NCBI GenBank assembly: GCA_030765065.1 | Contig: CM060990.1 | Location: forward strand, 666,140,618-666,204,617 | Source: Deroplatys truncata | Lineage: Eukaryota > Arthropoda > Insecta > Mantodea > Mantidae | Direction: 5' to 3' | DNA: 64,000 nucleotides | In this document: positions 1,772-48,895 of the stretch, in pieces | Position numbering within the stretch: position 1 is the first letter of the stretch | Layout of the letters: every line of letters starts with the position of its first letter | The notes under the pieces: generated by a model | Seen by the model: the letters and a program-made list of their open reading frames with translations, nothing else | Databases searched by the model: none | Told to the model about the DNA's origin: nothing | Program-made: the position numbers and the translations under genes

Positions 1772-2757
1772 CTCTGTATTCACTCTTAGGTTGATCTGCG
1801 TCAAAGCAAACCCCAGGTGACCAGTGCACCGCTATAATGTATCCTTCCGCCATTCGCACTAGAACTACTGTCACACTTTCAGACCATGTAGCGAGTACAA
1901 GCGGCACGTAGTGCAAAAGGAACAGAGTCCTTATTTCGACAACTGAAACGGTGACTATCGTATTCTGTTAAGGGTTAAAGGTGATAAGATTGATAGTTGC
2001 AACAAAATAAACGTTTGCACATATAATAATAATAGTTAATTCTAAAATAAATGAGCGAAAAATAAAGTAACAGGCATGCGATAACATAATTTATTCGCTC
2101 TCTGGAAGCGGCACTTTATTAACTGTTGGCGGCTCATTTAAAAAAAGAAATTGTGCATGTTACGCGAATTGCATTCTTCTTAAAATCACTACAATCTTGT
2201 ATCAAAGGATTTCATATGCTTTCTTTTTTTTTTCTCGAGTGTAACCACATTTCTCGTTTCAGATTTTTCTGCACAAGCACTGTTTATACTTGTACTCGAA
2301 ACACCGGTGAACTCAGAAGTTAATTTCACCATTTCTTTCGCGGAAAGTGTTGGATATTTCTCACATAACGTATAATAAAGATTCAACACAATTGTTTTTT
2401 CACCACTAGCCAATGGTTTGCGCGGCTAATGCTTTACGTAATTCGACGAAAACACAAGAGCAAATTCACCGTCCTCCATGATACTAAACACAATTGCTGG
2501 TTTCTGGCTGTAAACAATATTCTGCGCCTACTCGGATGTCAGGTGACTCATACGAATTGTGTCAAGGGACTTGTAGCTCTGTTAAATAAAACCTTAGGTA
2601 TTTGTATAAAATATTATATTATTTAAGGATAAATTCATTCTAAAATTCAGAGATTAGCATGGGACTACTTTCCTGGGGGCATTGTTACCGTGTTGCACCA
2701 CTGTGCACTGACCACGTGGGTTTGTTTTGCTGCGGATCAACCTAAGAGTGAATACAG
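1772..2757. mobile_element. Nested TA-type element with ~25-bp inverted repeats
   Basis: Inverted repeats 'ctgtattcactcttaggttg' (from about 1774) and its complement (ending about 2757) bound ~0.98 kb inserted into copy A. Similarity continues inside as 'caaagcaaac..ccaggtgacca' against 'tggtcagtgcac..'. It carries a transposase N-terminus on the minus strand (2189-2413). The end is uncertain by a few bases because the TA duplication is blurred. Confidence 0.65.
2189..2413 (-). pseudogene. N-terminal fragment of IS630/Tc1-type transposase
   Basis: The 74-codon frame begins MASGEKTIVLNLYYTLCEKYP and continues SAKEMVKLTSEFTGVS, which looks like the N-terminal helix-turn-helix of a widespread arthropod DDE_3 transposase group. 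Only the DNA-binding start is present; no DDE residues are found in the element, so it encodes no enzyme. Whether the first codon here is the real start is unclear. Family assignment rests on recalled pattern, not on a search. Confidence 0.5.
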
Positions 2758-2861
2758 TTTTCTTGCATCGTAGGCAAGAAGCTCTCTAATCCACTGCACG
2801 CTTACAGTTCAAGGACAAAGACAATTTCCTGAGTCACTCACAGTAACTTTGCCTATAGCCT

Positions 2862-2990
2862 CCTGCAGCTACTTCACCTCATCCTCCTCCTGGGAGCGGT
2901 AAGCACAAAAGATCCGCTTTGAGTTGAAACTCGAGGTGTGCCATCTATTCCCAGGTCATTCTCTACCATTTCCTTCTTTAATGGGTTCGG
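2862..2990 (+). mobile_element. SINE tail fragment
   Basis: It resembles the 3' part of the SINE at 53330-53450: 'ttcacctcatcc', 'gagcggtaagcacaaaag' and 'cgaggtgtgccat..ttcccaggtca'. The tRNA-like head is absent. Confidence 0.45.
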
Positions 2991-4640: not shown

Positions 4641-4649
4641 AGATACCAT

Positions 4650-5340
4650 AATATATACCTAGTCTACGTTTATGTGTGTTTGCACTGCATGCAAATAGCA
4701 TTACTGGAAGAAGTAACACAAGTGTAGCACCTAAAATTACACATAATAATGATGAAATACTTTGTCCACGAGACCAACTTTTGGGGGTAACAATTGACAA
4801 ATTCTTAACCTGGAAACGGCATATTCAGAACATAACTTCAAAAATTAATAAAGCATACAATATAGTATCTGTATTAAAATATTTGTAACCTACAGACACT
4901 AAAAATGATATATTTTTCTTATGTAGAATCTACTCTTGCTTATGGAATTTTTCATATGGGGTTCTGCTACAGAAATAAACACTCTTTTTGTAGCATAAAA
5001 GAAAATAATAAGAAAGACGTTTAGTATAAATAGGATCACTCACTTCCTTATTTTAAGGAAAACACATACTAACATTAACCTTCTTATATATTTTAGAAAC
5101 TGTTTGTTTCATAAATAACAACATTCAAAATATTCAGATGAATAATACAGTACATGATCATAAAACAAGGAACAACAATAAAATACAGTTTTACAAGGTT
5201 CCAGATTTACTAAAAGAGTTAACTCCATTTTACATAAAGGTATTCATATGTACAATTTAATCACTGAGAAAATAAAATGTAAGGATAAAAAAAATTCAGA
5301 AGAAATGCAAAAGGATTTCTAATAAATCATAGTTTCTATA
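4650..5340 (+). pseudogene. Non-LTR reverse transcriptase C-terminal remnant
   Basis: The clearest part (4745-4887) reads LLGVTIDKFLTWKRHIQNIT, the thumb-side motif 'LGV.ID..L.W..HI' found after the palm of non-LTR (Jockey/CR1-type) reverse transcriptases. Downstream, broken frames still show a 'YSCLWNFSYG' stretch (equivalent to the 'YGI.FWG' block) and 'FYKVPDLLKELTPFYIKVF', typical of the C-terminus. Several stops and frameshifts are present. The palm, endonuclease and ORF1 are absent. The same block occurs on the minus strand at 12.1-13.0 kb, probably from a related family. Confidence 0.6.
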
Positions 5341-5530
5341 GTACTCAAGAATTTTTTCAATATTTCGGATGTCATTGTTAGCGGTAAGATAGCAGACTTG
5401 TATTTAACCCTTTGTTATTATACGTGCATTTATATGAATAATAACTATAGATTTCACGTTTCAATTGTATTTGTACCAAAACACTTCATTATATATATTT
5501 TTTTTGTGTTACTGTATGTATTAATTAATA

Positions 5531-6419
5531 CGAGGGTGATCAATAAAGACTGAGACTAATTTTTTTTCACAGACATTTATTACTCCATTTCAATGTTGAC
5601 ATGGTCTTTTTCAAAGTAGTCCTCTCCTACTTGAATGCACTTTTTATGGCGTCTCTGCCAGTCCTCGAACACATAGTACAGGCCATTCTTTGTCAGGTCT
5701 TTGAGAATCGCCTCACTTAGCTTCAGCACTGCTTCAGTGCTCTCAAATCGAATGCCCCGGAGCTTTGCCTTTAGTGATGGGAATAAAATAAATCACAGGG
5801 GTCAAGATTGGGGCTATAAGGCAGATGCGGCACACAGGTAATGTTGAATTTAGCCAAAAATTCCTGGACTTTATTTGCAACGTGAGGCCGCACGTTGTTG
5901 TGATAAGTTCTGGATGTTTCCTTGCAATGTGCTTCCTCGGTGTAGCCACTGACGTGTAGTACGCTGCTGTAACAGTGGTGTGAGTGGGAACAACAATCAC
6001 AGCAGCTGTGTTGATGTTGACTTCAGTCATAGCAGAAGCCGAAGCACCAGGCCCACCTTGCTTAGCACAGAGGACTCGCTCTACCTTGAAGTCTTTGAAC
6101 CACCTAAACACTGTTGCACGAGGTAGTGCATCTTCACCGTATGCTTGCTTCAGCTTTCCCAAAGTGTCAGAGGTTGTATGATTTAAACGAAAACAAAATT
6201 TTATTGCTCCTCTTGTGTCACCTTCATTTTGTGGTATGCGAAATTCAACTAGGGTCAACAATATACTGCATTACTACCAACCTACCGATACGAGAGTGCT
6301 GCCGCCTATGGACATTATACATGAAACCCCGCTCTTTTCAAATATTCATGGTAGAGACAGGAAACTCTCAAGAAAGCTACAGGAAAAAATAAATCTCAGT
6401 CTTTATTGATCAGCCCTCG
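5531..6419 (-). mobile_element. Deleted mariner element with TA duplications
   Basis: The ends are inverted repeats: 'cgagggtgatcaataaagac' at 5531 and its near complement ending at 6419. TA lies outside both ends (5529-5530 and 6420-6421), as for mariners. At 889 bp it is shorter than a complete ~1.3-kb mariner. It contains the transposase fragments at 5743-6261. Confidence 0.9.
5743..6261 (-). pseudogene. Mariner transposase, internally deleted and frameshifted
   Basis: The N-terminal mariner DNA-binding region is clear at about residues 20-65: AIKFCFRLNHTTSDTLGKLK, then AYGEDALPRATVFRWFKDFK. After about residue 75 the sequence passes to a piece of the catalytic C-terminus ('LIAPILTPVIYFIP', corresponding to the 'YSPDLxPxDF' block in a shifted frame). 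The segment with the first catalytic Asp has been deleted, and neighbouring residues come from a wrong frame. It may still bind mariner ends but cannot cut DNA. Confidence 0.8.
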
Positions 6420-6421
6420 TA

Positions 6422-8759
6422 TATTTTGTCCAGTACATTGTATTGGATATATAGATTCTTATTGTATTCTATTTTAACTTCATTTTTACTAAGTTGGTAC
6501 TTTGTGTTTAAGATTAGGATGTTACCATGTTTCCTATATATATAAATTTTGATGTAAACATGAAATTGTATAATATTTCTAATTGTGAATAAGCACTTTG
6601 TTTTTAGATGCCAGCCATGAAAACAAAGTTCTGTGTCAAGTTCCCTACATCTGTAAGCCTTCATATGAAGCCTAGAACGGAAATCTCTTCCTGAACGTGA
6701 ACAGACGAATCTTTAACGTAACACCCATGAACTAGGTGCCGTTTTTATAAGCAGTTCTACATTCTGCCGTGTGCACAAAATTACAGTATGACCGTTTATT
6801 CCCAGGTCAGTGTTTTCTAAAACTGTCCTGAAATTCTTCCAAGGAAGTAGAATTAGGCGGTTGAACGCAGGTTATTTCTGTTGCGATTCTGTTCACCAAA
6901 TTCTACCGCACAGGCACATAACACAGATTTATCCTACCAAGAAGCTCAAGCTATGAATCTGTGTCTTGAAGTCTGACTTGGCAGAACATTTGAGTTTACG
7001 CTTTTTCTAGATGAGTCATTTGCTCTTCCTTGGACATCTCTCGATTAGAGGTATGGGTATTGCGAGATTCGGTGGTCTCTCGGACCATTTCAAAAACTGA
7101 GATGAATAAGATCAAAAGTGTTGGCTATTGTTTTCGTTGCAACGCATTTTAACACAACCTTCTTTTCCTACCCCATTCCTGCTCTTAAAACACGTTATCA
7201 TGCATTGTACATTTTTTAAAGGCACAAGGTAGTCTCAACACGTGGAACTTACACCTTAAGTGTGTTAAATTACCACTACTCTTAAAGTTCTCAATGGTTT
7301 TTCCTGAAATTTTAACGAATTATTCTATAAATAATGACATTTATTTCAAGTGGTTGTTTGCAATGATAGCTTATGTAGTTGAGTCCGTAAAAATTATTTC
7401 GTTCAACAGACAAATAATAAAATGTACTCTAAAAACATGTGACATGTACCTTTTAGCTATCTTCTGAACCTCAATTATTTAGTTATGTATATCAGTTCAC
7501 TAGAAATTGAAAAATCAATTATTTGCTAACTCAAAAAATAAAAATGTGGAAAATTTGTAATGTAGTTGCTTTCTTAATATCACGAATATACATTATAAAA
7601 TTATGATTGTGGTTGAGAAAGTTTAAATTTGTGTTGTATACCTGTACTGAAAATTTCAGCTCTCTACCTCTCATACATGGTACATAAGTATCCAAGAATG
7701 TTGTTTGAGAAAACTGAATTTAAAGTTTGAACATTAAAGTTCTAACACACTTTAGTACATTCAAAATCATAATCATCTTCACCTTCATTCCTGGATTGCT
7801 TCAGCTTTTCTGATTGCCTTCTCTTGGTCCTGGATTCTTTTAATTGCTGAACCGCTCGCTGGACATGATATAGTCATTCGTTGTTGAAAGATACAAAATT
7901 GTTCTTAAAAGGGGCGTTGTATGACAGCTTTAAAGGAATGCAGACTGGCATTAAATGGTATTTAAGTGTCTTAAAAACCTCTGAACAAGCAAACAGTATA
8001 TGTTTCCTGAAACTGGAAATAATAGAGATTTTATTAGTGCCTAAAATAAAAAATGTTATTTTTGACCATTTCAGAGTACTTTGTACCCTTAATGTGAAAC
8101 CTTAGATAATTCTTACATCGGTGAGGAGTAGTTTGAACTCAACTTTTGTGATTATGTAGGCTAATTTGGCTAAAAATAATTAAATAAATGCGCAGGGATA
8201 CCTTTGGGATGATATTTTCAACCGGTAAATTTTAGGAAATACAGCTATTTTGAAAACACAAATAAATTCCGAAACTAAAGTACTCTTTTGACCAGTGTTT
8301 GCCGCTCCTTCGACTATCGGAGCATGTTTAGCACTGAGAACTTTGTATGACCGAACACGAAGCTAAACGCTCATGTGCAGACATGCGAGGGCGAATCGAC
8401 CGCGGAGAAAATCTGATATGTCGCACTTACATGACATTCTCTACCTATTCCTCAACAATCTATTATTAAAAAGGCTTGTTCATCTACCTAATTAATGCTA
8501 ATCAAAATAAACATTTGCAGAAATGGTTTTATTGCATAGTTCCTTGGGGGCACAAGCGGATTAGGGGTAGGGAGTAGGTTTAAAGCAATAGTCAAATCTA
8601 TAAGAGGGTTCACTATGTGATGGCTTATAAATTCCGAATTAAAACCACTAACAGAATATTTTGAAAATATTTGACACCACAAAAAGTTTATCATAAGTTG
8701 TGTGTTTTAACGAGAACCACACTTTTTGTCTTTCTCTTACGGTTTACCAATTACACTTA
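6422..8759. other. AT-rich stretch without recognised genes
   Basis: Nothing here could be assigned. One minus-strand open frame ends at 7742 with a basic-then-acidic tail (SEKLKQSRNEGEDDYDFEC), which looks like a protein C-terminus but is only ~40 codons and unidentified. Confidence 0.4.
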
Positions 8760-34447: not shown

Positions 34448-34453
34448 ATTGTT
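34448..34453. repeat. Left target-site duplication (ATTGTT)
   Basis: ATTGTT directly precedes the AG that starts the left inverted repeat. The same six bases follow the right inverted repeat at 48382-48387. A six-base duplication is the size made by Polinton integrases. Confidence 0.9.
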
Positions 34454-36862
34454 AGTAGGATATATAGAGGAATTCGAGCATAGTTTTTTGCGTTTATATG
34501 GGAAAGGATAGGGAAAACGAGGCTAGATGCGACGGTTCAAGGAGGAAAATGCGTTTATATGGGAGAGATAGGGAATACGAGGACTGACGCTAGGCTAGAC
34601 AGTGGTAGGAGGGGGAGTGCGCTTTATATGAGACAGATAGGGAATACGTGGAGAGGTGCTAGGCTAGACAGAGGCTGAGTAATGTATGATTTATATGAGC
34701 GGTATAGGAAAACGATGAGAGGTGTTAGACTAGACAGGGCTTGAAACGTAGTGCATGGTTTATATGAGAGATATAGGAAAACGAGGAAAGGTGTTAGGCT
34801 AGACAGAAGTCGAGGAGTAGAGTATGGTTTATATGAGAAGTATAGGAAAACGAGGAGAGGTATTAGGTTAGGAGAATTGAGTTTGTGTTTATAAGGAGAG
34901 ACGAGAAAACGGAGAGAGATCCTATGCTAGGATAGACAGGTGTTAAAGTTAGGTTAGATAGGAAACCAAGGAGTGATACTCAGCTAGAGGGGGGCAGGAG
35001 GGAATGAGCTTTTGAGAGGTAGGGGATACGGGGAGTGGTGTTAGACTAGACAGGGCTTGAAACGTAGGGCATGGTTTATATGTATGAGAAGTATAGGAAC
35101 AGGAAGAGGGGTGCTAGGCTAGACAGAGGTTGAGGAGTAGAGTATAGTTTATATGAGAGGTATAGGAAAACGAGGAGAGGAGTTGGACTAGACAGAGGTT
35201 GAGGAGCAGAGTATGGTTTATGTGAGAGTCATAGGTAAACGAGAGAGGCGTTAGGCTAGACAGAGCTAGAGGAGTAGAGTATGGTTTATATGAGAGGAAT
35301 AGGAATAGGAGGAGAGGTGTTAGGCTAGACAGGTAGTGTAGCAGTAGGAATATGGACTTATATACAGGAGAGATAGGGAATAGGAGGTGCTAGACTTGAA
35401 AGCGACTTTAGACGTGAACTTAGTGGAAAACTGTTTCATGTCAATGTTCTAGACATGCCCATCACGTAACCTATTCAGGGAAAAGGTGACTCGTTCAGGG
35501 GAAAAAGGTGACTGCTCAGGGAAAAAGCAGGCCCACAAAGGGAAAAAGTTGACTAGCAAAGGGAAAAACGTGACCAGAAAAGGGAAAAAGGCGACCAGCA
35601 AAGGGAAAAAGGTGAGCCATAAAGGGAAAAAGGTGACCTGCAACGGGAAAAGCTAACCCACTAACACTAACAGGTAAGTAATTCAGGTAGTATTGCAAGA
35701 GGCTGACTGGATCATAGCAGTGTATGATTTCACAGGTAATTCAGCTAGTATCGTATGTATTTAGGCTAATTCGTCTAGTAACACAGGATAGATTCCAGAT
35801 GCTAACTGCATCATGGCTCTGCATGATTTCACAGATAATTGAGCTAGTATCGTAGGTATTTAGGCTAATTCAGCTAGTATCACAAGAGGATAGATTCTAG
35901 GGTTGGGTATAGCATAGTTTCATATTTCACAGGTAATTCAGAGGGTATCGTAGGTATTTAGGATAATTCAAGTAACATAGGTGTTTAGAGTAATTAAGCA
36001 AGCATTACAGGAGGGTAGGTTCCAGGGGTTGGTTATAACCTAGCTTCGTATTTCACAGATAGTTCAGGTAATATCGTAAGTATTTGAGGTAATCGACAGA
36101 GCTTCACAGATATTATTGATAATTTCGATCAGAGATTTGTATCCCAGCTATTTAAGGTAAATGCAGATGATTCAGGTTGTATCAATGGTATTTGAGTCAT
36201 TTTAACAGGTAATTCAGATAGTATCACAGGTGCTCGTGCTAATTTAGAGCAGGAATTCGTATCAGAGCTAGTTAAGGTAATTTCACATGATTTGGGTAGT
36301 ATCACAGGTATTTAAATCATTTTCATAGCCAATTCAGCTAGTATCGTGAGCATTTAAGCTAATTCAGCTAGTATCACAGGAGGCTAGATTCCAGAGGCTA
36401 ACTGCATCATAGCTATGCATGATTTCACAGCTAATTCAGCTAGTATCGTAGGTATTTAGGCTAATTCAGGTAGTATCACAGGAGGCTAGATTCCAGGGTT
36501 GGGTATAGCATAGTTTCATATTTCAAGGTAATTCAGCGGGTATCGTAGGTATTTAGGATAATTCAAGTAACATAGGTGTTTAGAGTAATTAAGCAAGCAT
36601 TACAGGAGGGTAGGTTCCAGGGGTTGGTTATAGCCTAGTTTCGTATTTTACAGATAGTTCAGGTAATATCGTAAGTATTTGGTTAATCAGCATAGTTTCA
36701 CAGATGCTCGTAATAATTTCGATCAGAGATTTGTATCACAGCTATTTAAGGTAAATGCAGCTGATTCAGGTTGTATAAATGGTATTTGAGTCATTTTAAC
36801 AGGTAATTCTGATATCACAGGTGCTCGTACTAATTTAGAGCAGGAATTCGTATCTGAGCTAT
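34454..36862. repeat. Left terminal inverted repeat (2,409 bp)
   Basis: Complementary to 45770-48381; the match ends at 'tctgagctat'. It is built of three zones: degenerate ~69-bp units (about 34500-35345, 'gtttatatgagaggtatagg', 'aggctagacagagg'), a 21-bp minisatellite (35466-35660), and a ~596-bp tandem repeat (from about 35720) built of 'aattcagctagtatc' subunits. Confidence 0.9.
35466..35660. repeat. 21-bp minisatellite, left arm
   Basis: About eight units of the form 'aaagggaaaaaggtgaccagc'. The right arm has about fourteen. Long apparent frames across it (FFPLL.. or KGKKVTS..) are repeat artefacts. Confidence 0.85.
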
Positions 36863-36965
36863 TTAATGTAATTTCACACGATTCGGGTAGTATCACAGGT
36901 ATTTAAGTCATTTTAACAGGCAATTCAACTAGTATCACAGGTACTCATGGTAATGTAGAGAGTAA
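35720..36965. repeat. ~596-bp tandem duplication in left arm
   Basis: 'gcatgatttcacag' recurs at 35821 and 36417, and long flanking stretches align in order. The second unit continues ~100 bp past the inner end of the inverted repeat, so the right arm has lost or never had that part. Confidence 0.8.
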
Positions 36966-37329
36966 TTCGATTATAAAACTTTTCTCATCCAGCGTTACAA
37001 CAATTTATATACTTTTTTCTAAATCTTACAAATTTTTATATGTTAAACAGTTATTGTACGATGCAGAGAGGGATAAACTGTATATGGTTTACAAACTGAA
37101 AAGCTTTGCGTCAACATACCTTTATTTCAGTTCGTTATAGATGTCTCTCCCCTTTTATCTAGGCTTGAGACTAGCACTAGGATTGCTCCTAATGGCAGGG
37201 TTACCACCTTCCCTTCCATCTTCTTCTTTCTTCATCAGGCGTCAGCTATCTGCATATACAGCACACAGATAACCTTCTTTTTAAGATTGTAGACTCACGA
37301 GAAAATCTTTATCTTTAACTTACATTCTT
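36966..37329. other. Spacer between left arm and polB
   Basis: AT-rich, with no recognised gene; it probably holds the polB 3' end. Confidence 0.4.
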
Positions 37330-38604
37330 TTAAGCACTGTTTGTAATGGCGTAATGTCCATACGCATATGTCGTTATCCCATCCTCAGCAATAATTCTTT
37401 TATCATCAAACGGAGTCAATGCAATTTTATTCACTTGCACTGTGGTAACAGCATGCTTTCGTGATAGGATTAGATTCATGGGCGTTCTGATGATTTCACT
37501 GGTTTTAAGACAGTCTGTATAGCTGTCAAACGAAATGTACTGCTTAATAGCGCTACGTTTTATACCTTTAATCTTTTTTATCATTGACCCTCGAATATCT
37601 AACGCATACATCTTAGGACGTAGTCCAACAAAGCGTAGGATGATTTTGCTATTAGCCTCATCTTTAAATTTTCCCAATACCTTCTTGTTCTGAGTAGAGT
37701 AACATATATGGTTGGCAGGGTAATCAGATGTATCGAGATGCTCAAGAAAACGTAGCTTGTCCTGGTACACATCTTCAGTTGTAACACGATGAATGAACGA
37801 ATCAGTGTCCATATACATAAGCTTCAGGTTTTCAGCTCCATAATAAGGCAACAACACGTCGTAATGATAGTTATACATTAATGTCTTGGAGATGTCCAAC
37901 ACACTCATACCAATGTATACAGGCCTGTTGAATACAATCTGACGAGAGGCCATATGTACAGCAGCTAGATTATCAGCATATATCGTCCTGTCGATAAACG
38001 TAGGCTTGGCGATCAGCTTCTCTAGAGTTTTTTCATTGCTCACCAGTCGTATATCCATACGGTTACGCAGGTTCTCCATAGTTTTTCCAAACATGGCGTT
38101 GTTAAAGAGTTTGTAGAGATCCTTCTCGAAATCATTTGCAGCTTGTTGTCGTAGCCTGTTGTTAAAATCCACATAAGGTTTCAACCACCGAGACTGTAGG
38201 AATTGTAGCACACGATGGATTTTTGTTAGTCGTAGTCCATGACTAAGAGCTTGCTTCAAAGCCATGTAATGCACTACATACTTCTTTCGAGGTCCAAGAT
38301 GGGGTATCAGTTTCTTTGTAGATGCTTCCAATGGTTTCATACACTCTGGCAGGAAAGGTAGATCGTTGTGTAGATCGTGAAGTTCTGCAGGATACTCGAT
38401 GTCGACTTCTAATATGTACCCATGAGGATCATCTTCTTGTAGTGTTTCTAAGTTGATTTCTTCAGGCAAAACCCACTGAAATCCACCAAAAGGAAGGGCG
38501 TGACACATTGCCCAGCCATATTGGTTATTAGCGTCCTCGTATGTGATAAATTGGGTTGGTCTCGACGGATCAAACTTCTCCATATGTGTTATTAGCCTCA
38601 GCAT
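37330..38604 (-). pseudogene. PolB piece 5: palm and thumb with catalytic motifs
   Basis: The 424-codon frame has motif A (YEDANNQYGWAM, about residue 23), motif B (KLFNNAMFGKTMENLRN, about 165), motif C with both catalytic Asp (YMDTDSF, about 265) and a natural C-terminus (YAYGHYAITNSA). No internal stop occurs in this piece, so the core was intact until recently. The catalytic residues are all present. Its frame is not continuous with piece 4. Confidence 0.9.
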
Positions 38605-39100
38605 ACCGATGAGAAACTTGGCATAAACCTCCTCTTATACCTGATTCCACCATGAGTAGTTGATCATAATCTTGTAACAGCTCTAACTTAATTCCAGTAT
38701 ACAGTAACATAGCGTCCCATGTTAGACCTGGAGAGGTAAAATAATGGGCGGGATCGACTTTGTGTGTTTTAAGGGTTTGCTCTCTGAACGTCTCAAAGAC
38801 GTCAGCTAGAAGAAGTACATCCGAAGTTAAGTAGAGATCGCTGTACTCTCCCAGGTTTCTCACATTAAACAGCTCCCATACATTTCTAGCATGATCGTAG
38901 TCAGCATCAGTAATTTCTTCTTCATTTAATCTATTGTAGAAGGAGTCCTTAGGAGGCAAGCAGGTCTCGTTCAGGGCATCCCATGACGTAACAAAATCAT
39001 ATGGAAATACACCCTTACGGGTCATCAACTTCAATTTGTCTTCTCCAAAGTACTTTAGCGTTTCAGGATACGAGGTTAGATTTTTTACCAACTTATCCAA
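38570..39100 (-). pseudogene. PolB piece 4: linker before the palm
   Basis: The frame includes FPYDFVTSWDALNET, YLTSDVLLLADVFETFR and YFTSPGLTWDAMLLYTGI, the stretch between exonuclease and palm in Polinton-type and related protein-primed polymerases. It ends with SHRYAEANNTYGEV, where a one-base shift moves the true frame into piece 5. The real upstream residues continue before 39100, so the displayed start codon is not biological. Confidence 0.85.
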
Positions 39101-39116
39101 GCTTGTACTGAGGAAT

Positions 39117-39124
39117 CGGAAGCT
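39117..39124. repeat. Target-site duplication of the retrocopy, 3' side
   Basis: CGGAAGCT, adjoining the T-run that is the copy's poly(A) tail on the minus strand. The last base is shared with the tail, so the duplication is 7 or 8 bp. Confidence 0.85.
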
Positions 39125-40931
39125 TTTTTTTGGGGGGGGGAACAGGAATAAAGGTTTAAGGAAAAACAGATATATATATAGGTTGTAGGAAGGAAAAAGG
39201 AAGAGGAAAAGAAGGATCTTATACTGTGGTGGCGCTATTTATTGGGGGCATAATTGGTATTGTGTGGCTGGTACCGCCGAAGCAAACCTGCGGTTCGTGG
39301 GTACTTACTAAAATACGGAGAGGCCCAAAGTGGACAATCTCCTTAGTGGGGAATAGGTAAGAGTCATGGCCGAGGCCCTGAACAGTAACCTAGGAACAGT
39401 GGTGTCATAACAGTGTAATTTGGTTCCGTGTCCGGGCCTGTTACCTCCGGGCAGCGGATGTTGATGTAGAGCTGTGTCGGCGGAGATGCGGTGTCTATCT
39501 GTTGCGGCGTCTGTTTTGTTGAGCGGGTTGATGTAGGACGTGTTGCTCCATGAAGTTTCGAATGAGTTGATATCCTTCCTCCAGCTTGTGGTGGCTGTCC
39601 TGTAGCTGGCGTAGGCTGGTGGCGATGTCTGCAGTGGTCTGTAGTTGTTCTTCGCGGATACCGGCGACTGAGGCCTCAATGGCCGTCAACCGCGCGTCCC
39701 GGTCGTCGGTTGTGTCATTGTCATGTTCTTCTTCCAGGTAGCTTTCTATTCGGTACAGCTTTCGCTGTATTGACGGCAGGAGGTCTGGGTCGTCGTAGTG
39801 GGATAACTCCTCAATTGACGCCCTGAGTCTGTTAAGGCTGCCAGTGGCGCTGGCGTAGTTCCTGATTGATGTGCGCTGCCTTGCTTCAATGCCAGCAAAT
39901 CGCCGGTTGGCGGCCTGCCGAAGCGTTTCCAGCTTTTGGTTGAGTTTGGCGATCTCTGCCTGTACGGTTGCTGAGGCTGCTAGAAGCTCGGTGATTGAGG
40001 CCTCTATGGCTGTCAGTGTAGAAGCTGTGTGCGTGTTGGTGACGTCTGCGTTGTTACGCTCCCGGCGAGAGCGTGGTGGTTGAGGTGGTGCGTCTTGTTG
40101 CGTCTGGGTTGAAGCTGCCCGCCTCGGGTAAAGCGGGCAGCAAGCTTGGCCCGTGAAGTGATCCATCCTGCAGCAGGTGGCGCAGAACCTTCTACGGCGA
40201 GAAAGATCATGCTGCTTGCAGGTGGGCGTCAAGGCCGGTGAGCCACAGTAGTGGCAGCGTGGTGAGTAGGTGCATTGTTCCGCCGAATGCCCATACTGGC
40301 AGCATCGGCGGCATGGTGGTGTCCGTTGTGTGCGGCTGGCTTCAAAGCGGATTGTGGTGCCGAGGAGCTCCACGTCCGTCTGAAGAGCGGCGTCGTAGTG
40401 CGCCTTGTTGAGGAAAGCAAGGCGCACCAATGGAGTCGGTCCGCTCCTAGAAACAATTCTGGTCGCCTTCACCATTGAAGGCCAGCGTTGTTGGAGTTGT
40501 TCCAGGAGAATCTGCGTTGCCAGGTTTCTCTGTACCCTGACCGCGACTGCGCTGAAGCGGCCTTCTTGGTCGGGGGTGTTGTCCGGAGAGTCATCTGCGT
40601 TGTCGGTTGAGGCCGTCTGCTGGTTCGATAAGACGCTGAGTTCCTCAGCGGTGCGGTTATGTCCAGCTACAGCGGCGGCGTAGCTCCTTCGAGGTGCTGC
40701 AGTTGAGTCGCTGGAGGTAGATGAAGAAGTAGGGGGCGGGCCGCGATCCCGCAGCCAGCTGAGTTTTGGTAGCCACATGATTTCACTGGGGTGGAAGTAT
40801 CTTGAGAAGTGTCCAGAGAGTTCGGCGGATTCCAATGATCGTCCGCGAGGCGACAGTGAAGTCCGGCGTTTGGGCCTGAGAGCGCTTTGTCCTCTTCGTC
40901 TCATCTCGTCGAGAGCTGGAAGCGAAGTCTC
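39125..40931 (-). mobile_element. Gag-only retrocopy inserted in polB
   Basis: A 1,807-bp insertion bounded by the 8-bp duplication CGGAAGCT (39117-39124 and 40932-40939). On the minus strand it begins 27 bp before an intact gag-like frame, has an AATAAA signal near 39240, and ends in C9 then A7-8 at 39124-39140. It is GC-rich compared with the host element. No reverse transcriptase or endonuclease frame is present. It is either a processed copy of a gag-type mRNA or a non-autonomous, ORF1-only retroposon moved by a LINE. Confidence 0.85.
39495..40904 (-). CDS. Gag/ORF1-like protein with CCHC zinc knuckles
   Basis: An intact 469-codon frame. Residues 1-60 are basic and low-complexity. About 110-180 resembles the small RNA-binding fold before the knuckles of insect non-LTR gag proteins (LVRLAFLNKAHYDAALQ). 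About 190-260 hold two clear knuckles (CRRCCQYGHSAEQC and CATCCRMDHFTGQAC) with a further Cys/His segment between them. About 290-460 is coiled-coil-like and contains LTAIEAS twice. In most LINE ORF1 proteins the coiled coil precedes the nucleic-acid-binding part, so this order is unusual. The protein would bind RNA and self-associate. The start has only a 27-nt leader, and no ORF2 follows. Confidence 0.75.
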   Translation of the reverse strand: MRRRGQSALRPKRRTSLSPRGRSLESAELSGHFSRYFHPSEIMWLPKLSWLRDRGPPPTSSSTSSDSTAAPRRSYAAAVAGHNRTAEELSVLSNQQTASTDNADDSPDNTPDQEGRFSAVAVRVQRNLATQILLEQLQQRWPSMVKATRIVSRSGPTPLVRLAFLNKAHYDAALQTDVELLGTTIRFEASRTQRTPPCRRCCQYGHSAEQCTYSPRCHYCGSPALTPTCKQHDLSRRRRFCATCCRMDHFTGQACCPLYPRRAASTQTQQDAPPQPPRSRRERNNADVTNTHTASTLTAIEASITELLAASATVQAEIAKLNQKLETLRQAANRRFAGIEARQRTSIRNYASATGSLNRLRASIEELSHYDDPDLLPSIQRKLYRIESYLEEEHDNDTTDDRDARLTAIEASVAGIREEQLQTTADIATSLRQLQDSHHKLEEGYQLIRNFMEQHVLHQPAQQNRRRNR

Positions 40932-41782
40932 CGGAAGCTATCCACAAATCGAAGCTTTATATCTCCTACATACTTGGTGAATGAGATATAGCTTTCTTCA
41001 GAGTTAGGAATTACCTCCACACGTTCACTTGTACAACCCAGCTCCTTAACAATGAAATGAGAGTCATATCCGCTAAGGTTATGCATGAAGACTGGTATAT
41101 ATTTAGGTGTTTTGCAGGCTAAATTACATTCATTATGAAGACTTCCACGATATTCACCGCTGATGTGATCATGGTCGCGTACTTTATAGTTCTCTTCTGT
41201 AAAGGGTTTTTCACACAAGTAGCATGTCGTAGAAGACTCGAAATCCTTTTGCTGTTGATCCGTAAGTTTCAGAGGCTTAGCAGATTTGTATATATTACCA
41301 ATCATTTTTGCAACAGATGTCAGGTACAGCATAAATTTCTGAGCTGCATCAGCACCACGATACACATAGGGTTGCTTAGGAAGATCAGTTTCGAGATGTT
41401 CAACACTGGATGTAGGTTTCACGTAAACACAGAAGCTCATTGCTGTGTGCTCTTGATAAGGGGTTGTATAGGAAGTTTCAGGATTGGGTGTACACGTATG
41501 GCATGGAGTGAGAATACTCTCAAAATCAGCATAGATGACATAAGGTACTTTCAGCATCCTCTCAACATTTTTAAACTGTGCAATTGCTTTCTCCTTGCTA
41601 GTCATAACAACCCTTGCAATACCATGTTGAATACAGACGGCTGCATGTTCTTGTAGTTTTTCCAGTCCACTTCGTCCATATCGATTATCAAAATGTGTAA
41701 AACAGCGCTTGCAGGTATAAACACGTTCATTACATTTAGTTTTCTGGCGTCGAACGAGCTTCTCAAAATTCCTTATATACAC
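40901..41782 (-). pseudogene. PolB piece 3: duplicated exonuclease segment
   Basis: It repeats piece 2 and runs on to exonuclease motif III (RFVDSFR), after which the frame enters the retrocopy and reads RLRFQLSTR before stopping. Without the insertion the frame would continue as FLSTSLDKLVKNL at piece 4. This confirms that the insertion site is inside the motif. Confidence 0.85.
40932..40939. repeat. Target-site duplication of the retrocopy, 5' side
   Basis: CGGAAGCT again, directly before the copy's 5' end. Removing the insertion rejoins polymerase sequence in frame. Confidence 0.85.
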
Positions 41783-42685
41783 GTAGTGATGTTTCCACTG
41801 CTGTCATTCAATAGACAAATCGAAGCTTTATATCTCCTACATACTTGGTGAATGAGATATAGCTTTCTTCAGAGTTAGGAATTACCTCCACACGTTCACT
41901 TGTACAACCCAGCTCCTTAACAATGAAATGAGAGTCATATCCGCTAAGGTTATGCATGAAGACTGGTATATATTTAGGTGTTTTGCAGGCTAAATTACAT
42001 TCATTATGAAGACTTCCACGATATTCACCGCTGATGTGATCATGGTCGCGTACTTTATAGTTCTCTTCTGTAAAGGGTTTTTCACACAAGTAGCATGTCG
42101 TAGAAGACTCGAAATCCTTTTGCTGTTGATCCGTAAGTTTCAGAGGCTTAGCAGATTTGTATATATTACCAATCATTTTTGCAACAGATGTCAGGTACAG
42201 CATAAATTTCTGAGCAGCATCAGCACCACGATACACATAGGGTTGCTTAGGAAGATCAGTTTCGAGATGTTCAACACTGGATGTAGGTTTCACGTAAACA
42301 CAGAAGCTCATTGCTGTGTGCTCTTGATAAGGGGTTGTATAGGAAGTTTCAGGATTGGGTGTACACGTATGGCATGGAGTGAGAATACTCTCAAAATCAG
42401 CATAGATGACATAAGGTACTTTCAGCATCCTCTCAACATTTTTAAACTGTGCAATTGCTTTCTCCTTGCTAGTCATAACAACCCTTGCAATACCATGTTG
42501 AATACAGACGGCTGCATGTTCTTGTAGTTTTTCCAGTCCACTTCGTCCATATCGATTATCAAAATGTGTAAAACAGCGCTTGCAGGTATAAACACGTTCA
42601 TTACATTTAGTTTTCTGGCGTCGAACGAGCTTCTCAAAATTCCTTATATACACGTAGTGATGTTTCCACTGCTGTCATTCAATAG
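40944..42685. repeat. 871-bp near-perfect tandem duplication inside polB
   Basis: Unit 1 is 41815-42685 and unit 2 is 40944-41814. Each starts 'acaaatcgaagc' and ends 'cattcaatag'. I saw one mismatch (a 'gagctgc/gagcagc' change). The lower breakpoint lies 4 bp from the target duplication of the nested retrocopy. The duplication must be very young, or it is an assembly artefact. Confidence 0.9.
41808..42653 (-). pseudogene. PolB piece 2: HNH-like zinc region and exonuclease
   Basis: A 281-codon frame. Order: a Cys-rich finger (CKRCFTHF..), exonuclease motif I YADFES (about residue 86), CYLCEKPF with RDHDHISGEYRG and HNECNL (about 190-220, resembling the endonuclease VII/HNH zinc fold often found in this polymerase family), then exonuclease motif II NLSGYDSHF (about 236). 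It ends KLRFVY, where the tandem duplication joins back to earlier sequence and creates a stop. One silent base difference from piece 3 was seen (Ala codon, near 42214). Confidence 0.85.
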
Positions 42686-42865
42686 TAGCAGGTCGCGATG
42701 TTCAGGTAGTTCAATATCAGCAACCTTTATCGGATACACTTCGTGCTTCTCATCCAGCCCGAAAACGTTAATAGACATATTGTTAAGCTTCTCAAATTTA
42801 GGTATTTGAGAAAGTGGAGTAGGGTAGGAAACACAGCTGAAGTCGTACTTGTCTTGAAGTTGTTT

Positions 42866-43666
42866 TTATTTGTTCACACGCTGTGCCTTCTTCCCTATGA
42901 ATTTAGCTAATATAGAGTACATGAAACATTTATCGTCGGTAAAGTTCTGAATGTTTATACACGCTTCTTTAGCTCCGACAGATGGTGGTAGTGGTATGTA
43001 GCTACTTCCTCGTAACGGGTTGTACTTGTTGATACGAAGTCGAACTCCTTCCACAGCAAGCAAAGCCCAGCTGCTACCCTTAAGCTGAGACTCCTCCATT
43101 TCAGTCACCAATTTCTTGAATTTCGCTTCCAGTGTTGAGTCCAGATCTGTTTCTAGGAAAACAGGATGATTCCTTGTTTTAAATGTTTTGTCACAGGTTT
43201 CTCCAATACTGTTAACAAATCGACACTCAGCCAGCAGATTAATTTTAACACTCTTATGAATGCTAAGCTCCTTATGCACAGCCTGGATTATACGTTGTTT
43301 TGCCTCTTGCAGATACATATTCAGGTCCTTAGGTGACTCGCATCGTATAAAATACGATTTTAATCGTCCTTCGAATGAAGTTTCGTATTCTTTCATATCA
43401 GAGTCCTCCATTGTTGACAGCAACTGATGTTTAGTTGGCTCCAATCTTCTTTTCTTCTGAGGGCTGCTTATTTCACATATATCGTCGTGTCGCTGCCCCT
43501 TATAACCATCTTTGAAGGTTACATTACAATGTTTACATTTGAAGAGCTTCTTGCAGCTCATCTCGTGTCTTCTCATGTCATAACCTCGGAGGAACTTCTT
43601 CCCACATTTTCCGCATGCATATCCAGTAGCGCTTGGAATAATATCCTTATACGCTGAGTTATTCAT
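42866..43666 (-). pseudogene. PolB piece 1: N-terminal zinc-finger region
   Basis: The 266-codon frame starts MNNSAYKDIIPSATGYACGK. It has two C2H2-type fingers near residues 18-63 (CGKCGKKF..RRHEMSC and CKHCNVTF..RHDDIC), then a Lys/Arg patch (KKRRLEPTK). Residues ~75-260 look like the N-terminal region found on arthropod Polinton-type polymerases (FEGRLKSYFIRCESPKDLNM; RINKYNPLRGSSYIPLP). The frame stops at 42866, after which polymerase-like sequence continues in the same and shifted frames towards piece 2 (SINVFGLDEKHEVYPI, about 42720-42775). The stop, and a later 1- or 2-base shift before HYVYIRNF, separate it from the catalytic part. Confidence 0.8.
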
Positions 43667-44056
43667 CTTTATTCTTGATGTAATAACGTATTAATCACTG
43701 ATCAATGAAATGTAGACATCTTCACCTTGATACCACTTTAGAAGGCTGATTATTCTTGGAGAGAACACGATGTTAACACCTCAAGACTAATTAGCACAAT
43801 GAAGTCCAATGCCCTAGATCACCATATTTATAGAGGGAGCACGAACCTTTTAGATCAATCATAAACTCGTTTCATAACCAACTGTGTATGATCGCTCAAC
43901 GTGTATTAACCCCCCAGCCATATAACCTCAAGTCTAGAGACAGGATGTTTATGACGTCACACCCAGAGACAGGATGTCTGGCAGCATCAAACACGTTTAA
44001 ACTCGTCTCATAACTACCTGATTATGCTGTCACACCAGCAAGAGAAGCATTCTCCC
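43667..44056. other. polB upstream region
   Basis: It presumably holds the polB promoter. I see no certain TATA box or initiator. An imperfect direct repeat 'gagacaggatgt' occurs at 43938 and 43966. Confidence 0.35.
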
Positions 44057-44590
44057 ACGCTCATTCAGACATATATTTCAAATTCAAAGCCTACCACCAC
44101 CACCACCACCACCACCACCACCACCACCACCACCACCACCACCACCACCACCACCTATTGTACCAAGGTTAATGCCAGCTGTATTATCGCAACACTTAAA
44201 GTAAAAGCTTAAAAGGTAACGAGAAGATTTTCCTCCTTATTTACTTAATTATTTCATGTTTTCATTCCCTTTTCAATTCTTCCTTTCCATCTTCCCACAG
44301 AAAGACCATTACATTTCACTGCAATCACGAGAAAAGCAAACGCTCATTCAGGCATATATTTCGAATTCAAAGCCTACCACCACCACCACCACCACCACCG
44401 CCATCACCTATTGTACCAAGGTTAATTCCAGCTGTATTATCACAATTCTTAAAGTAAAAGCTTAAAAGGTAATGTAGAAGATTTTCCTCTTATTTACTTA
44501 ATTATTTCATGTTTTATTCCCTTTTCAATTCTTCCTTTCCATCTTCTCACAGAAAGACCATTACATTTCACTACAATCATGAGAAAAGCA
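44057..44590. repeat. Tandem duplication carrying (ACC)n arrays
   Basis: Units start 'acgctcattcag' at 44057 and 44339. Each holds 'ttcaaagcctacc' followed by ACC repeats (about 22 units in the first, about 9 in the second) and 'tattgtaccaaggttaat'. Poly-Thr reading frames here are repeat artefacts. Confidence 0.85.
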
Positions 44591-44619
44591 ATTTTTGCAG
44601 AGTTACACGGATTCTAAGC

Positions 44620-45769
44620 TTCTAAATCGAACCCGGTAATACTTTTAATAAATGTATTTTAGCTCCCCAATATCAGCATCTACCATTTAATCTTTACTCG
44701 AACCTGATATGGTCCATAAGCTTGAAGATATATGAAATCACCCCTTCGGGATTCGATCTGAGTACTTTAACGTAATATTTGTCATGATAACGATATTTAA
44801 GGACTAGATACTCTGTTTACGTTTACCTTGACATGTCTATCTAAATTAAATTACAAGTTATTAAATTTTTGCAAGTAAATTTCATTGAATCGGTATTCGA
44901 ACCCAGAACACCAAGAACAAAATAATTTATAATATTCGTCTGACATGTTAAGCAAAGCTGCATGCAGTTACATCATCGATCTAAGTGATATATTCTAGTG
45001 TACAGAAGAAAATTAAGGAAGTCATTAAAAGATGGGGAATCGAACCAAGCACAACTGATCGACAGTTATATACAACATTAATCACCCAGTACAGAACCTA
45101 TCAATCATGCTTTGGTACACTCCTCTACCTCACTTAGTTCCCGAGATAATGACGATTTAAAATTTAGGATCGTACCCAGAATGTCAGGTATCTAATTACA
45201 CATCTACAAGATACTACCTAATAACATAAACGCAATAAGGTTTATTTGGCGTCTTTATCTTAATTAGTTTAAGAGTTATTAAATTTATAATTAAATTACA
45301 TTTTATCGGTATTCGAACCCAGAACACCAGAAACAAAATTATTTACAATATGAGTTTGATATGTTTAAAGGTGCTGTATGTAGTTACAGCATCAATCTAA
45401 GCGATTATTTTAGAGTATAGAGGAAAATTAAGGAAGTGATTGAAAAATCGGGATTCGAACTAGGGACAACTGACTGGAAATTATATACCGTATTAGTTAC
45501 CCATCACAGGAGCTATCAAACATGCTTTAGTCCATCCCTCTACCTTTCTTAGTTTCCGAGATAATGGAATTTTTAAAATTAAGGATCGAACCGAGGACAC
45601 CAGGTACCAAAATATACATTTAGAAGAAACTACCTAATGACAATAATGTAATAAACTTTATTTGGCGACTTTATCTTAATTAGTCTCTGAGTTATTAGAA
45701 GATGAATTTGTAATCACTCACAGGATTCGAACCCAGGCATCCCGGTCAACTTGGAACAATACGCTAATG
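44620..45769 (-). repeat. Array of nine tRNA-like B-box cassettes
   Basis: Reverse-oriented B-box cores (complement of 'ggttcgaatcc'-type words) occur near 44627, 44749, 44894, 45036, 45167, 45309, 45450, 45583 and 45722. Spacing is 122-145 bp. Cassettes 3-5 and 6-8 form two ~416-bp higher-order units (for example 'tattcgaacccagaacacc' at 44894 and 45309). Upstream of each B box on the minus strand is a tRNA-like stretch such as 'ttgaccgggatgcctggg' or 'agttgtccctagttcgaat'. Acceptor stems and full cloverleaves are not evident, so these are degenerate tRNA-like or SINE-derived units. The last abuts the right inverted repeat. Confidence 0.7.
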
Positions 45770-48381
45770 ATAGCTCAGATACGAATTCCTGCTCTAAATT
45801 AGTACGAGCACCTGTGATATCAGAATTACCTGTTAAAATGACTCAAATACCATTTATACAACCTGAATCAGCTGCATTTACCTTAAATAGCTGTGATACA
45901 AATCTCTGATCGAAATTATTACGAGCATCTGTGAAACTATGCTGATTACCCAAATACTTACGATATTACCTGAACTATCTGTAAAATACGAAACTAGGCT
46001 ATAACCAACCCCTGGAACCTACCCTCCTGTAATGCTTGCTTAATTACTCTAAACACCTATGTTACTTGAATTATCCTAAATACCTACGATACCCGCTGAA
46101 TTACCTTGAAATATGAAACTATGCTATACCCAACCCTGGAATCTAGCCTCCTGTGATACTACCTGAATTAGCCTAAATACCTACGATACTAGCTGAATTA
46201 GCTGTGAAATCATGCATAGCTATGATGCAGTTAGCCTCTGGAATCTAGCCTCCTGTGATACTAGCTGAATTAGCTTAAATGCTCACGATACTAGCTGAAT
46301 TGGCTATGAAAATGATTTAAATACCTGTGATACTACCCAAATCATGTGAAATTACCTTAACTAGCTCTGATACGAATTCCTGCTCTAAATTAGCACGAGC
46401 ACCTGTGATACTATCTGAATTACCTGTTAAAATGACTCAAATACCATTGATACAACCTGAATCATCTGCATTTACCTTAAATAGCTGGGATACAAATCTC
46501 TGATCGAAATTATCAATAATATCTGTGAAGCTCTGTCGATTACCTCAAATACTTACGATATTACCTGAACTATCTGTGAAATACGAAGCTAGGTTATAAC
46601 CAACCCCTGGAACCTACCCTCCTGTAATGCTTGCTTAATTACTCTAAACACCTATGTTACTTGAATTATCCTAAATACCTACGATACCCTCTGAATTACC
46701 TGTGAAATATGAAACTATGCTATACCCAACCCTAGAATCTATCCTCTTGTGATACTAGCTGAATTAGCCTAAATACCTACGATACTAGCTCAATTATCTG
46801 TGAAATCATGCAGAGCCATGATGCAGTTAGCATCTGGAATCTATCCTGTGTTACTAGACGAATTAGCCTAAATACATACGATACTAGCTGAATTACCTGT
46901 GAAATCATACACTGCTATAATCCAGTCAGCCTCTTGCAATACTACCTGAATTACTTACCTGTTAGTGTTAGTGGGTTAGCTTTTCCCGTTGCAGGTCACC
47001 TTTTTCCCTTTATGGCTCACCTTTTACCCTTTGGTGGTCGCCTTTTTCCCTTTGCTGGTGACATTTTTCCCTTTACTGGTCACCTTTTTCCCGTTGCATG
47101 TCGCCTTTTTCCCTTTGCTGGTCACCTTTTTCCCTTTGCTGGTCACATTTTTCCCTTTGCTGGTCGCCTTTTTCCCTTTTCTGGTCACGTTTTTCCCTTT
47201 GCTAGTCAACTTTTTCCCTTTGTGGGCCTCCTTTTTCCCTGAGCAGTCACCTTTTTCCCCTGAACGAGTCACCTTTTCCCTGAATAGGTTACGTGATGGG
47301 CATGTCTAGAACATTGACATGAAACAGTTTTCCACTAAGTTCACGCCTAAAGTCGCTTTCAAGTCTAGCACCTCCTATTCCCTATCTCTCCTGTATATAA
47401 GTCCACATTCCTACTGCTACACTACCTGTCTAGCCTAACACCTCTCCTCCTATTCCTATACCTCTCATATAAACCATACTCTACTCCTCTAGCTCTGTCT
47501 AGCCTAACGCCTCTCTCGTTTACCTATGACTCTCACATAAACTCTACTCTGCTCCTCTGCTCCTCAACCTCTGTCTAGTCTAACTCCTCTCCTCGTTTTC
47601 CTATACCTCTCATATAAACTATACTCTACTCCTCACCTCTGTCTAGCCTAGCACCCCTCTTCCTGTTCCTATACTTCTCATACATATAAACCATGCCCTA
47701 CGTTTCAAGCCCTGTCTAGTCTAACACCACTCCCCGTATCCCCTACCTCTCAAAAGCTCATTCCCTCCTGCCCCCCCTCTAGCTGAGTATCACTCCTTGG
47801 TTTCCTATCTAACCTAACTTTAACACCTGTCTATCCTAGCATAGGATCTCTCTCCGTTTTCTCGTCTCTCCTTATAAACACAAACTCAATTCTCCTAACC
47901 TAATACCTCTCCTCGTTTTCCTATACTTCTCATATAAACCATACTCTACTCCTCGACTTCTGTCTAGCCTAACACCTTTCCTCGTTTTCCTATATCTCTC
48001 ATATAAACCATGCACTACGTTTCAAGCCCTGTCTAGTCTAACACCTCTCATCGTTTTCCTATACCGCTCATATAAATCATACATTACTCAGCCTCTGTCT
48101 AGCCTAGCACCTCTCCACGTATTCCCTATCTGTCTCATATAAAGCGCACTCCCCCTCCTACCACTGTCTAGCCTAGCGTCAGTCTTCGTATTCCCTATCT
48201 GTCTCATATAAAGCGCACTCCCCCTCCTACCACCGTCTAGCCTAGCGTCAGTACTCGTATTCCCTATCTCTCCCATATAAACGCATTTTCCTCCTTGAAC
48301 CGTCGCATCTAGCCTCGTTTTCCCTATCCTTTCCCATATAAACGCAAAAAACTGTGCTCGAATTCCTCTATATATCCTACT
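45770..48381. repeat. Right terminal inverted repeat (2,612 bp)
   Basis: Mirror of 34454-36862 with the same three zones. It is ~200 bp longer. About 126 bp of the difference comes from six extra minisatellite units at 46975-47290. Confidence 0.9.
46975..47290. repeat. 21-bp minisatellite, right arm
   Basis: About fourteen units of 'tttttccctttgctggtcacc' type with base changes. The left arm has about eight. Long frames across it are not genes. Confidence 0.85.
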
Positions 48382-48387
48382 ATTGTT
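48382..48387. repeat. Right target-site duplication (ATTGTT)
   Basis: Identical to 34448-34453 and directly outside the terminal 'cctact'. Confidence 0.9.
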
Positions 48388-48895
48388 GCTCGAAGAATGA
48401 CTAGTAGCATTATTACTTTCTAATTCATTGTTGCCTCAAGGTTACCTCATTGTTGCCTCATTGTTAGCAACTTTTAACCTATTATTCTCACAGCTCCTAC
48501 ATTATTAAATTACGTAATACATTCACATAACATTATTGTATTATACAATAATATAAATATTTACAATGACTGTAATATACACTTTTTATATATTGTTACA
48601 TACACATATTGCTTTAAGGCGGGCTGTTATTATATGATTTATTATATAATTTGACTAAAATCATTTAAGTGTTAAAAATACTGCCTCAACCCTGACAAGA
48701 CACAAGTGCTCTCCGAAAGAAATACAGCAGCCGTGGCACAATTATAAAATAATATTTACAACAAACCAATACATACACAAGAATATAGATACACTATCAT
48801 CAGATCCTAGTCTACGAGAACGTCGAGATACATCACAAGAGTACGGGCATCAAGACGACCTACAGGTACGTAACACAGCATCCATCATCAACGTA
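48388..48895. other. AT-rich right flank
   Basis: Short 'attgttgcctca' repeats near 48427-48465. Otherwise nothing assignable. Confidence 0.4.

Follow-up and report, generated by a model that had tools for sequence, protein, structure and literature searches.

A Polinton-like element of the mantis Deroplatys truncata as a probable deletion derivative of a palindromic, polymerase-only family

Polintons, or Mavericks, have been assigned a position close to the origin of numerous DNA viruses of eukaryotes and of linear plasmids (PMC11071308; this and the other papers given here by PMC number are cited from excerpts). Insect Mavericks such as Sf Maverick 1 and 2 encode a long DNA polymerase (PolB) that contains a recombination endonuclease VII domain and a DNA_pol_B_2 domain (PMC5803895), and intact vertebrate Mavericks have terminal inverted repeats (TIRs) of 46–1447 bp (PMC8097293). 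Here we analyse a Polinton-like element at positions 34454–48381 of a 64,000-nucleotide stretch (the window) of contig CM060990.1, positions 666,140,618 to 666,204,617, in the 4.29-Gb assembly GCA_030765065.1 of the mantis Deroplatys truncata. The original prediction, made from the sequence of this stretch, described a Polinton reduced to one protein-primed PolB gene between TIRs of 2.4–2.6 kb. Comparison with other copies in the host genome indicates that the element probably arose by deletion within a palindromic, polymerase-only transposon family whose ancestry lies in Polintons or adintoviruses.

The element shares with Sf Maverick 1 and 2 the domain combination of its PolB and, with Polintons in general, a 6-bp target-site duplication (TSD), AGT-type ends and terminal inverted repeats (motifs as given in PMC8097293); a PolB domain plan has been described in PMC11071308. 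It differs in that no integrase, ATPase, protease or capsid gene was found in it, and in that the inverted repeat of the family spans nearly the whole element and contains the gene. Two adintovirus-like contigs in IMG/VR (L010/L011/L013 and L012) encode full-length relatives of this PolB, homologous over nearly the full protein and 45% (L010/L011) or 43% (L012) identical in the palm. However, L011 also carries an rve integrase convergent with PolB, a Pox_A32-type ATPase, a GIY-YIG domain and a weak, sub-threshold capsid match; the parts of the contigs compared have no long inverted repeat, and the virion genes and integrase of adintoviruses were not found in the palindromic element. Like the protein-primed linear plasmids of the cytoplasm and mitochondria, the element is a PolB-centred replicon without virion genes, and the cytoplasmic plasmids are published as having arisen by loss of the morphogenetic module (PMC11071308). 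Unlike these plasmids, it is integrated in the nuclear genome with TSDs, is palindromic and has no other plasmid gene that we could see. With the bidnaviruses it shares a related protein-primed PolB and the small number of genes per molecule, but it has no capsid-like frame and bears a Polinton-type integration signature. Snap-back or palindromic defective viral genomes, such as those of adenovirus, are inverted dimers of one origin-bearing genome end. The family described below has the same form, an inverted dimer of one end with its replication origin, but differs from them in retaining its own PolB under purifying selection and in constituting a high-copy chromosomal family.

A palindromic family in the host genome

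When the host assembly was searched with a 300-bp probe from the element's end, 42 matches were listed (40 of 2151 candidates were scored), comprising the window's own end, 14 facing pairs, 11 ends without a listed partner and two partial matches. The 14 facing pairs, which were chosen for having both ends and not for their TSDs, were each read as two halves. All of these copies and the window copy have AGTAGG/CCTACT ends, and a perfect 6-bp TSD, every one a different hexamer, flanks 15 of 15 copies. Three further copies were sampled at the ends and centre; the TSD was perfect in the two copies that had both ends within the sampled stretches, the left end of the third lying outside them. A search of the host assembly with the element's end, as proposed with the original prediction, recovered same-end copies with 6-bp TSDs.

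When the two halves of 10 copies were compared, seven proved to be near-perfect palindromes throughout, with total lengths of 16565–17580 bp and arms of 8079–8773 bp that are 98.8–99.9% identical. The unpaired centres of these seven measure 68, 68, 69, 203, 822, 73 and 69 nt (68–73 nt in five of the seven); 727, 1107 and 4323 nt are unpaired in the other three copies. Each arm consists of terminal repeats and one PolB gene, and the unit also contains 416-bp repeats. The remaining four of the 14 copies, which were mapped to the unit except for 1.1 kb of one of them, are one-sided deletions of the palindromic plan, as is the window copy. A loop sequence, recognised by eye, is common to four of five compared centres in either orientation, and three of three further centres are palindromic with the common loop and 71–84 unpaired nt. 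In its recurrent form, the element is a 16.6–17.6-kb palindrome in which each arm contributes one of the two PolB genes. The window copy corresponds to unit positions 1–8474 followed by positions 2539–36 in reverse: one arm is almost complete, the other has lost its PolB, and the apparent TIRs are stubs of the larger palindrome. The architecture of the original prediction, one PolB gene between 2.4–2.6-kb TIRs, is therefore that of a deletion derivative. A plain one-PolB Polinton relic was also considered and dropped once the other copies had been compared.

The frame lists of the 10 copies contain no frame of at least 150 amino acids outside the PolB region, frames having been assigned to PolB by their position in the arm and not each by homology. 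In one unit, the ATG-initiated frames of at least 60 amino acids are PolB (1217 amino acids) and two frames antisense to it. No capsid-size frame besides PolB is thus present in the 10 lists or in this unit, and in the copies so read the lists leave no space where an integrase or a capsid gene could lie intact. Six-frame Pfam scans of one arm, of modest sensitivity, found no rve integrase and no capsid, returning Endonuclease_7 alone at 22.3 bits, just below its cut-off of 23.6. The same kind of scan of the window interior also found neither gene; apart from Endonuclease_7 it returned two sub-threshold matches attributable to chance (MHYT, 0.044; ZrgA, 0.013), and these whole-frame scans were so weak that the PolB domain itself escaped them. 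In a tblastn comparison at E ≤ 0.001, 70 frames from seven relative loci matched the whole window in the PolB region only; two of the frames that matched run antisense to PolB. The same frame lists, Pfam and tblastn scans gave no ATPase, cysteine protease or capsid gene, homology being the weaker test for capsid and protease because both genes are poorly conserved. The lack of integrase and capsid genes in the original prediction therefore held for the window copy and for the same-end copies by frame lists, mapping and scans; a copy combining the same termini with an integrase and a capsid gene is absent from the 14 others (10 frame-listed, four mapped).

Selection on PolB and its relatives

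The palm of PolB, used as a query against the genome, gave 24191 candidates, of which the best 100 were scored. For 71 of these 100 matches the surrounding frame is uninterrupted over at least 1215 amino acids, and 72 of the 100 form 36 outward-facing (−,+) pairs, leaving 28 unpaired within this set. The spacing is 9891–9932 bp in 25 of the 36 pairs, both arms are open in 22, and no close pair in any other arrangement occurs within 20 kb. One bit score is common to 76 of the best 100, which suggests a recent burst.

The ratio of nonsynonymous to synonymous substitution rates (dN/dS) was calculated for 10 copies (45 pairs, one frame per copy); codons in windows of less than 60% amino-acid identity, corresponding to frame-changed tails, were dropped, which lowers dN somewhat. 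The ratio was 0.20–0.35 in all 17 pairs involving copy 301M or 180M; the five closest copies, compared with one another in 10 pairs, gave 0.93–1.61, and the remaining 18 pairs gave 0.33–0.93. PolB is under purifying selection between subfamilies, and the pattern fits, as would be expected, selection while the element spreads and neutral decay after insertion.

The palm piece is 38–45% identical in alignment to six adintovirus-like metagenomic relatives. In a fold search with the palm model, all eight PDB matches at E ≤ 0.001 were phi29 DNA polymerase, a protein-primed enzyme, and the nearest viral folds were the polymerases of a MELD virus, adintovirus, parvo-like virus and bidnavirus. PDB sequence searches gave chance matches only, and an earlier structure model from three sequences, with a mean pLDDT (predicted local distance difference test score) of 37.7, was not used. 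The palm motifs, the 38–45% identity and the phi29 fold assign this PolB to the protein-primed type, and the alignment and the fold ranking place it in the adintovirus/bidnavirus group, the comparison set being metagenomic relatives and folds. Five further relatives (L014–L018) lie on contigs filed in bacterial metagenome-assembled genomes (MAGs) and are probably misbinned eukaryotic or viral DNA; an rve integrase adjoins PolB in one of the five. These MAGs are assigned to Spirochaetes, Alphaproteobacteria, Oligoflexia and Ectothiorhodospiraceae. Viral contigs scanned with single window PolB pieces, or with one degenerate pattern, yielded no relatives. A motif-B pattern gave 10 stretches, one of which was a true relative by tblastn, and a rescan with the PolB of that relative matched nothing except itself.

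Resident Polintons and the origin of the palindromes

A Polinton integrase query had 3921 candidates in the genome, of which 134 were scored, many with uninterrupted frames of about 340–365 amino acids. Four integrase loci are alike in containing an ATPase-like frame, the integrase and one further frame. Pfam confirmed rve and a chromodomain on the resident integrase; the ATPase-like frame is presumably an ATPase, a label that we give without Pfam support, and the protease match at a Polinton locus is weak (E 0.086, below cut-off). The chromodomain-integrase Polinton family with uninterrupted frames is seen at L059/L060 and L055–L058, and a frame that begins within L055 and another in L060, which have no Pfam match, are in our assumption capsid-like.

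One Polinton with an integrase could be delimited. It is about 18.9 kb long, with inverted repeats of about 570 bp, DNA_pol_B_2 frames, the TSD GCTGTC and AGTAGT ends, and its terminal sequence AGTAGTGATATATA compares with AGTAGGATATATA at the end of the palindromic element. Across the 302 kb searched, AGTAG(N)GATATATA was found 31 times, always at an element end: each end in the sample carries this motif once, apart from a single variant end. The PolB of the delimited Polinton belongs to another lineage, about 25% identical to that of the palindrome over a short stretch, and the two elements have no DNA similarity in the stretches compared. A second integrase query (126 of 9142 candidates scored) detected a high-copy family with frames that are often 309 amino acids long (L070–L075), and in three of six loci of this second family a PolB of the palindrome's clade, 36–40% identical, stands beside the integrase. 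Integrase-bearing relatives are thus present in the genome, and none of those found is the direct parent of the palindrome. Among the best 100 PolB matches, neither query has an integrase match within the element span, the nearest lying at 82 kb (first query) and 31 kb (second query); the nearest match of the second query to the left end of any of the 14 copies is at 79 kb. Two integrase matches at C72:159931–160512 (−) and 165191–165772 (+) face outward, about 5 kb apart, and possibly mark another palindromic element.

Given that an integrase-bearing Polinton with a 6-bp TSD and nearly the same end motif is resident, and that integrases are abundant, integration in trans is likely. The original prediction had proposed a borrowed integrase: a plausible source exists in the genome, and these likenesses suggest its use by the element.

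An explanation must account for the palindromic structure, its recurrence, the integration hallmark, the selection on PolB and the lack of any other recognised gene, all of which are seen in the copies. The element is an inverted dimer of a unit of about 8.1–8.8 kb, joined head to head, usually at a loop of about 70 nt. From its fold and clade, PolB would use a protein primer to initiate DNA synthesis at the end that the arms have in common. The displaced strand of a palindrome could then fold into a duplex hairpin that exposes this end once more, and synthesis that continues through the loop would restore the palindrome with identical arms. The integrase of a resident Polinton would insert the product in trans, and later one-sided deletions would give copies such as that in the window. 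Hairpin or cruciform DNA could be a substrate of the endonuclease VII-like domain, although this domain is no peculiarity of the family, having been reported from ordinary Mavericks as well (PMC5803895). The first palindrome was probably a snap-back product of a Polinton-like genome end that had retained the polymerase. The family would accordingly be a self-copying fold-back derivative of Polintons or adintoviruses, combining fold-back replication with integration in trans. We give an even chance to its being a self-synthesising hairpin transposon in this full sense, a one-gene, whole-element palindrome that would need a single kind of origin and a single protein for its own copying, every displaced strand forming its own duplex, and that would borrow its integrase.

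Several observations weigh against this explanation. Neither a replication intermediate nor a terminal protein nor a transcript was seen, the palm model is of modest confidence (mean pLDDT 62.7), dN/dS is near 1 among the closest copies, and several copies, including the window's, have a broken PolB. Copy 281M has an unrelated 69-nt centre (at the inner end of L031). The case for an integrase in trans consists of the end similarity and the TSD length, with one Polinton delimited. In the PolB region, sister arms are nearest relatives in eight of 11 copies; in the other three, the sister arm is equalled or surpassed in nearness by an arm of another copy, and in two of these (152M and C5_207M) the within-copy and between-copy distances overlap. 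The third, C1_224M, has arms 2.3% apart (1314 sites), and its left arm is nearer to the 301M/180M subfamily (1.75%). Simple hairpin copying does not predict such a pattern, and recombination between copies, or conversion, is the more likely cause. In the terminal region, sister arms are nearest in only nine of 15 copies, distances there being inflated by projection (shifts of tandem units) and not relied on. Chromosomal gene conversion could also yield the identity of the arms.

The last point has most bearing on one rival, in which a long-TIR element is replicated linearly by protein priming and its arms are homogenised by chromosomal gene conversion, the hairpin having no role. Gene conversion between inverted repeats is a general process, and this rival, possible if doubtful, draws on the copy-specific differences of 0.1–1.2% between arms and on C1_224M, whose arms look like products of two sources. 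However, the PolB arms of 181M, 301M and 180M are 0.08–0.16% apart, as against 1.75–2.3% to any other copy, a likeness expected if arms are identical at insertion but not decisive. We consider it unlikely that the palindromes are satellite genomes of a defective-interfering kind, packaged by Polinton/adintovirus or bidna-like particles and integrated by the integrase of these. The PolB fold, nearest to polymerases of such viruses (MELD virus, adintovirus, parvo-like virus and bidnavirus), and the presumed capsid-like frames in L055 and L060 would suit a satellite, and segments of the Vesanto type have terminal repeats. Multi-segment bidna-like viruses with PolB-homologue segments are known, as in Vesanto virus (PMC8363768); on the other hand, the OTU domain of bidnavirus PolBs is described as inactivated (PMC11071308), whereas the Cys block of the putative OTU-like region is kept here.

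The remaining two rivals concern the palindromes themselves. Derivation of the window copy from a normal Polinton with capsid genes by a plain internal deletion, as one of many differently shaped copies, would agree with the large deletion in the window copy and with the full-length Polinton in the genome. This rival is largely refuted, and we regard it as very unlikely: the form without deletions is palindromic and carries PolB twice, integrase and capsid genes were not encountered in the 14 same-end copies (10 frame-listed, four mapped), and the delimited Polinton is the distant relative described above. Long palindromic reads are a known class of artefact, and inverted duplication of reads in the library or assembly could in principle have created the palindromes. 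Such an origin is hardly credible here, every palindrome having flanks and a 6-bp TSD that belong to it alone, with arms that differ by up to 1.2% and with a single spacing in 25 of the 36 PolB pairs at different loci.

Should the hairpin explanation be true, replication would occur in cis and integration in trans, whereas non-autonomous transposons usually divide these functions the other way round. A polymerase-only palindrome that spans the whole element would stand naturally between viruses, transposons and protein-primed plasmids; it would show that replication alone, without packaging or an integrase of its own, can sustain a high-copy family, and would provide an uncommon natural example of near-perfect 16-kb palindromes that occupy many chromosomal sites. 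A phrase search for non-autonomous or truncated Polinton/Maverick elements found none, which does not establish their absence from print, and no palindromic Polinton is evident from the titles and abstract openings of the matches listed. The screen in PMC8097293 required integrase and PolB together, and surveys that require an integrase near PolB in this way would overlook a palindromic family.

Two individual copies have further peculiarities. The ends of the 281M centre are themselves inverted repeats, and C1_224M (L049/L050) is a deleted copy with arms seemingly of different subfamilies, as if two elements had recombined.

Organisation of the window copy

The AG...CT termini (AGTAGG at 34454 and CCTACT at 48381), the perfect ATTGTT duplication and the inverted repeats of 2.4 and 2.6 kb of the original prediction were all borne out (Table 1). 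ATTGTT is frequent locally, with several occurrences in the right flank, yet it is exact at both element ends. The two repeats are identical in 2398 of 2408 alignment columns, and their length difference consists of gaps inside tandem-repeat tracts; the left one contains 69-bp, 21-bp and about 100–125-bp tandem repeats and is G-rich on the + strand.

Table 1. Coordinates of features of the window copy (positions in the window)
Feature	Positions	Strand	Remarks
Left TSD	34448..34453		6 bp, ATTGTT
Left terminal part of arm 1 ("left TIR")	34454..36862		2409 nt
PolB, C-terminal palm piece	37333..38586	−	DANNQYG, NNAMFGKTMEN, YMDTDS
PolB, exonuclease-to-palm piece	38576..39116	−	DNA_pol_B_2; frame differs from palm piece
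Retroelement insertion in PolB	39117..40939	−	including 8-bp duplications
871-bp tandem duplication, copy 1	40944..41814	−	Endonuclease_7/exonuclease part of PolB
871-bp tandem duplication, copy 2	41815..42685	−	870/871 identical
PolB, frame from in-frame stop to first frame change	42647..42865	−	homology to about 42665
PolB, N-terminal piece	42869..43690	−	weak C2H2-finger matches (below cut-off); conserved CFxYSIL block
416-bp tandem repeat	44838..45697		near inner end of arm 1
Deletion junction	45769..45770		arm 1 to unit 8474, arm 2 resumes at unit 2539; second PolB arm gone
Outer remnant of arm 2 ("right TIR")	45770..48381		2612 nt
Right TSD	48382..48387		6 bp, ATTGTT

The sole recognisable element gene in the interior is PolB, on the minus strand and in pieces. 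Its reading is interrupted by an in-frame stop at 42866–42868, located from stop-to-stop frames read with relatives, by two frame changes (near 42665 and near 38580), by the tandem duplication and by the retroelement. Pfam matched the pieces to Endonuclease_7 with an E-value of 2.2e-06, which is above the cut-off, and to DNA_pol_B_2 with an E-value of 6.5e-06 and 25.7 bits, the cut-off being 25.8; the palm piece had no Pfam match; the motifs listed for it are those that we take to be palm motifs of family-B polymerases. The CFxYSIL block may represent the OTU-like region, a name that follows PMC11071308. The original prediction was thus right in finding a single PolB-type gene, which is broken in this copy. 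Contrary to what had been proposed, the window copy did not keep self-replication, because its PolB is broken, and it would be broken even if the small changes were sequence errors, because the insertion and the duplication disrupt it.

The retroelement insert itself (39125–40931, 1807 bp) has a poly-A end and is flanked by the 8-bp duplication CGGAAGCT at 39117–39124 and 40932–40939. Positions 39498–40937 form an uninterrupted, cysteine-rich frame of 480 amino acids, presumably gag-like, without a significant Pfam match. At 1.8 kb the insert has no space for a reverse transcriptase and resembles an ORF1-only ('half-LINE'-like) element. Its edge is 4 bp from that of the 871-bp duplication, and the two perhaps arose in a linked event.

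The two strands of the arms are strongly asymmetric: in the outer kilobase, the GC skew is +0.60 on the left and −0.58 on the right; 1-kb windows of the flanks have a mean of −0.02 (standard deviation 0.09), with a single extreme of −0.45. Just right of the insertion site, at 48425–48465, lies an 11-bp tandem repeat, TCATTGTTGCC, which includes the target hexamer.

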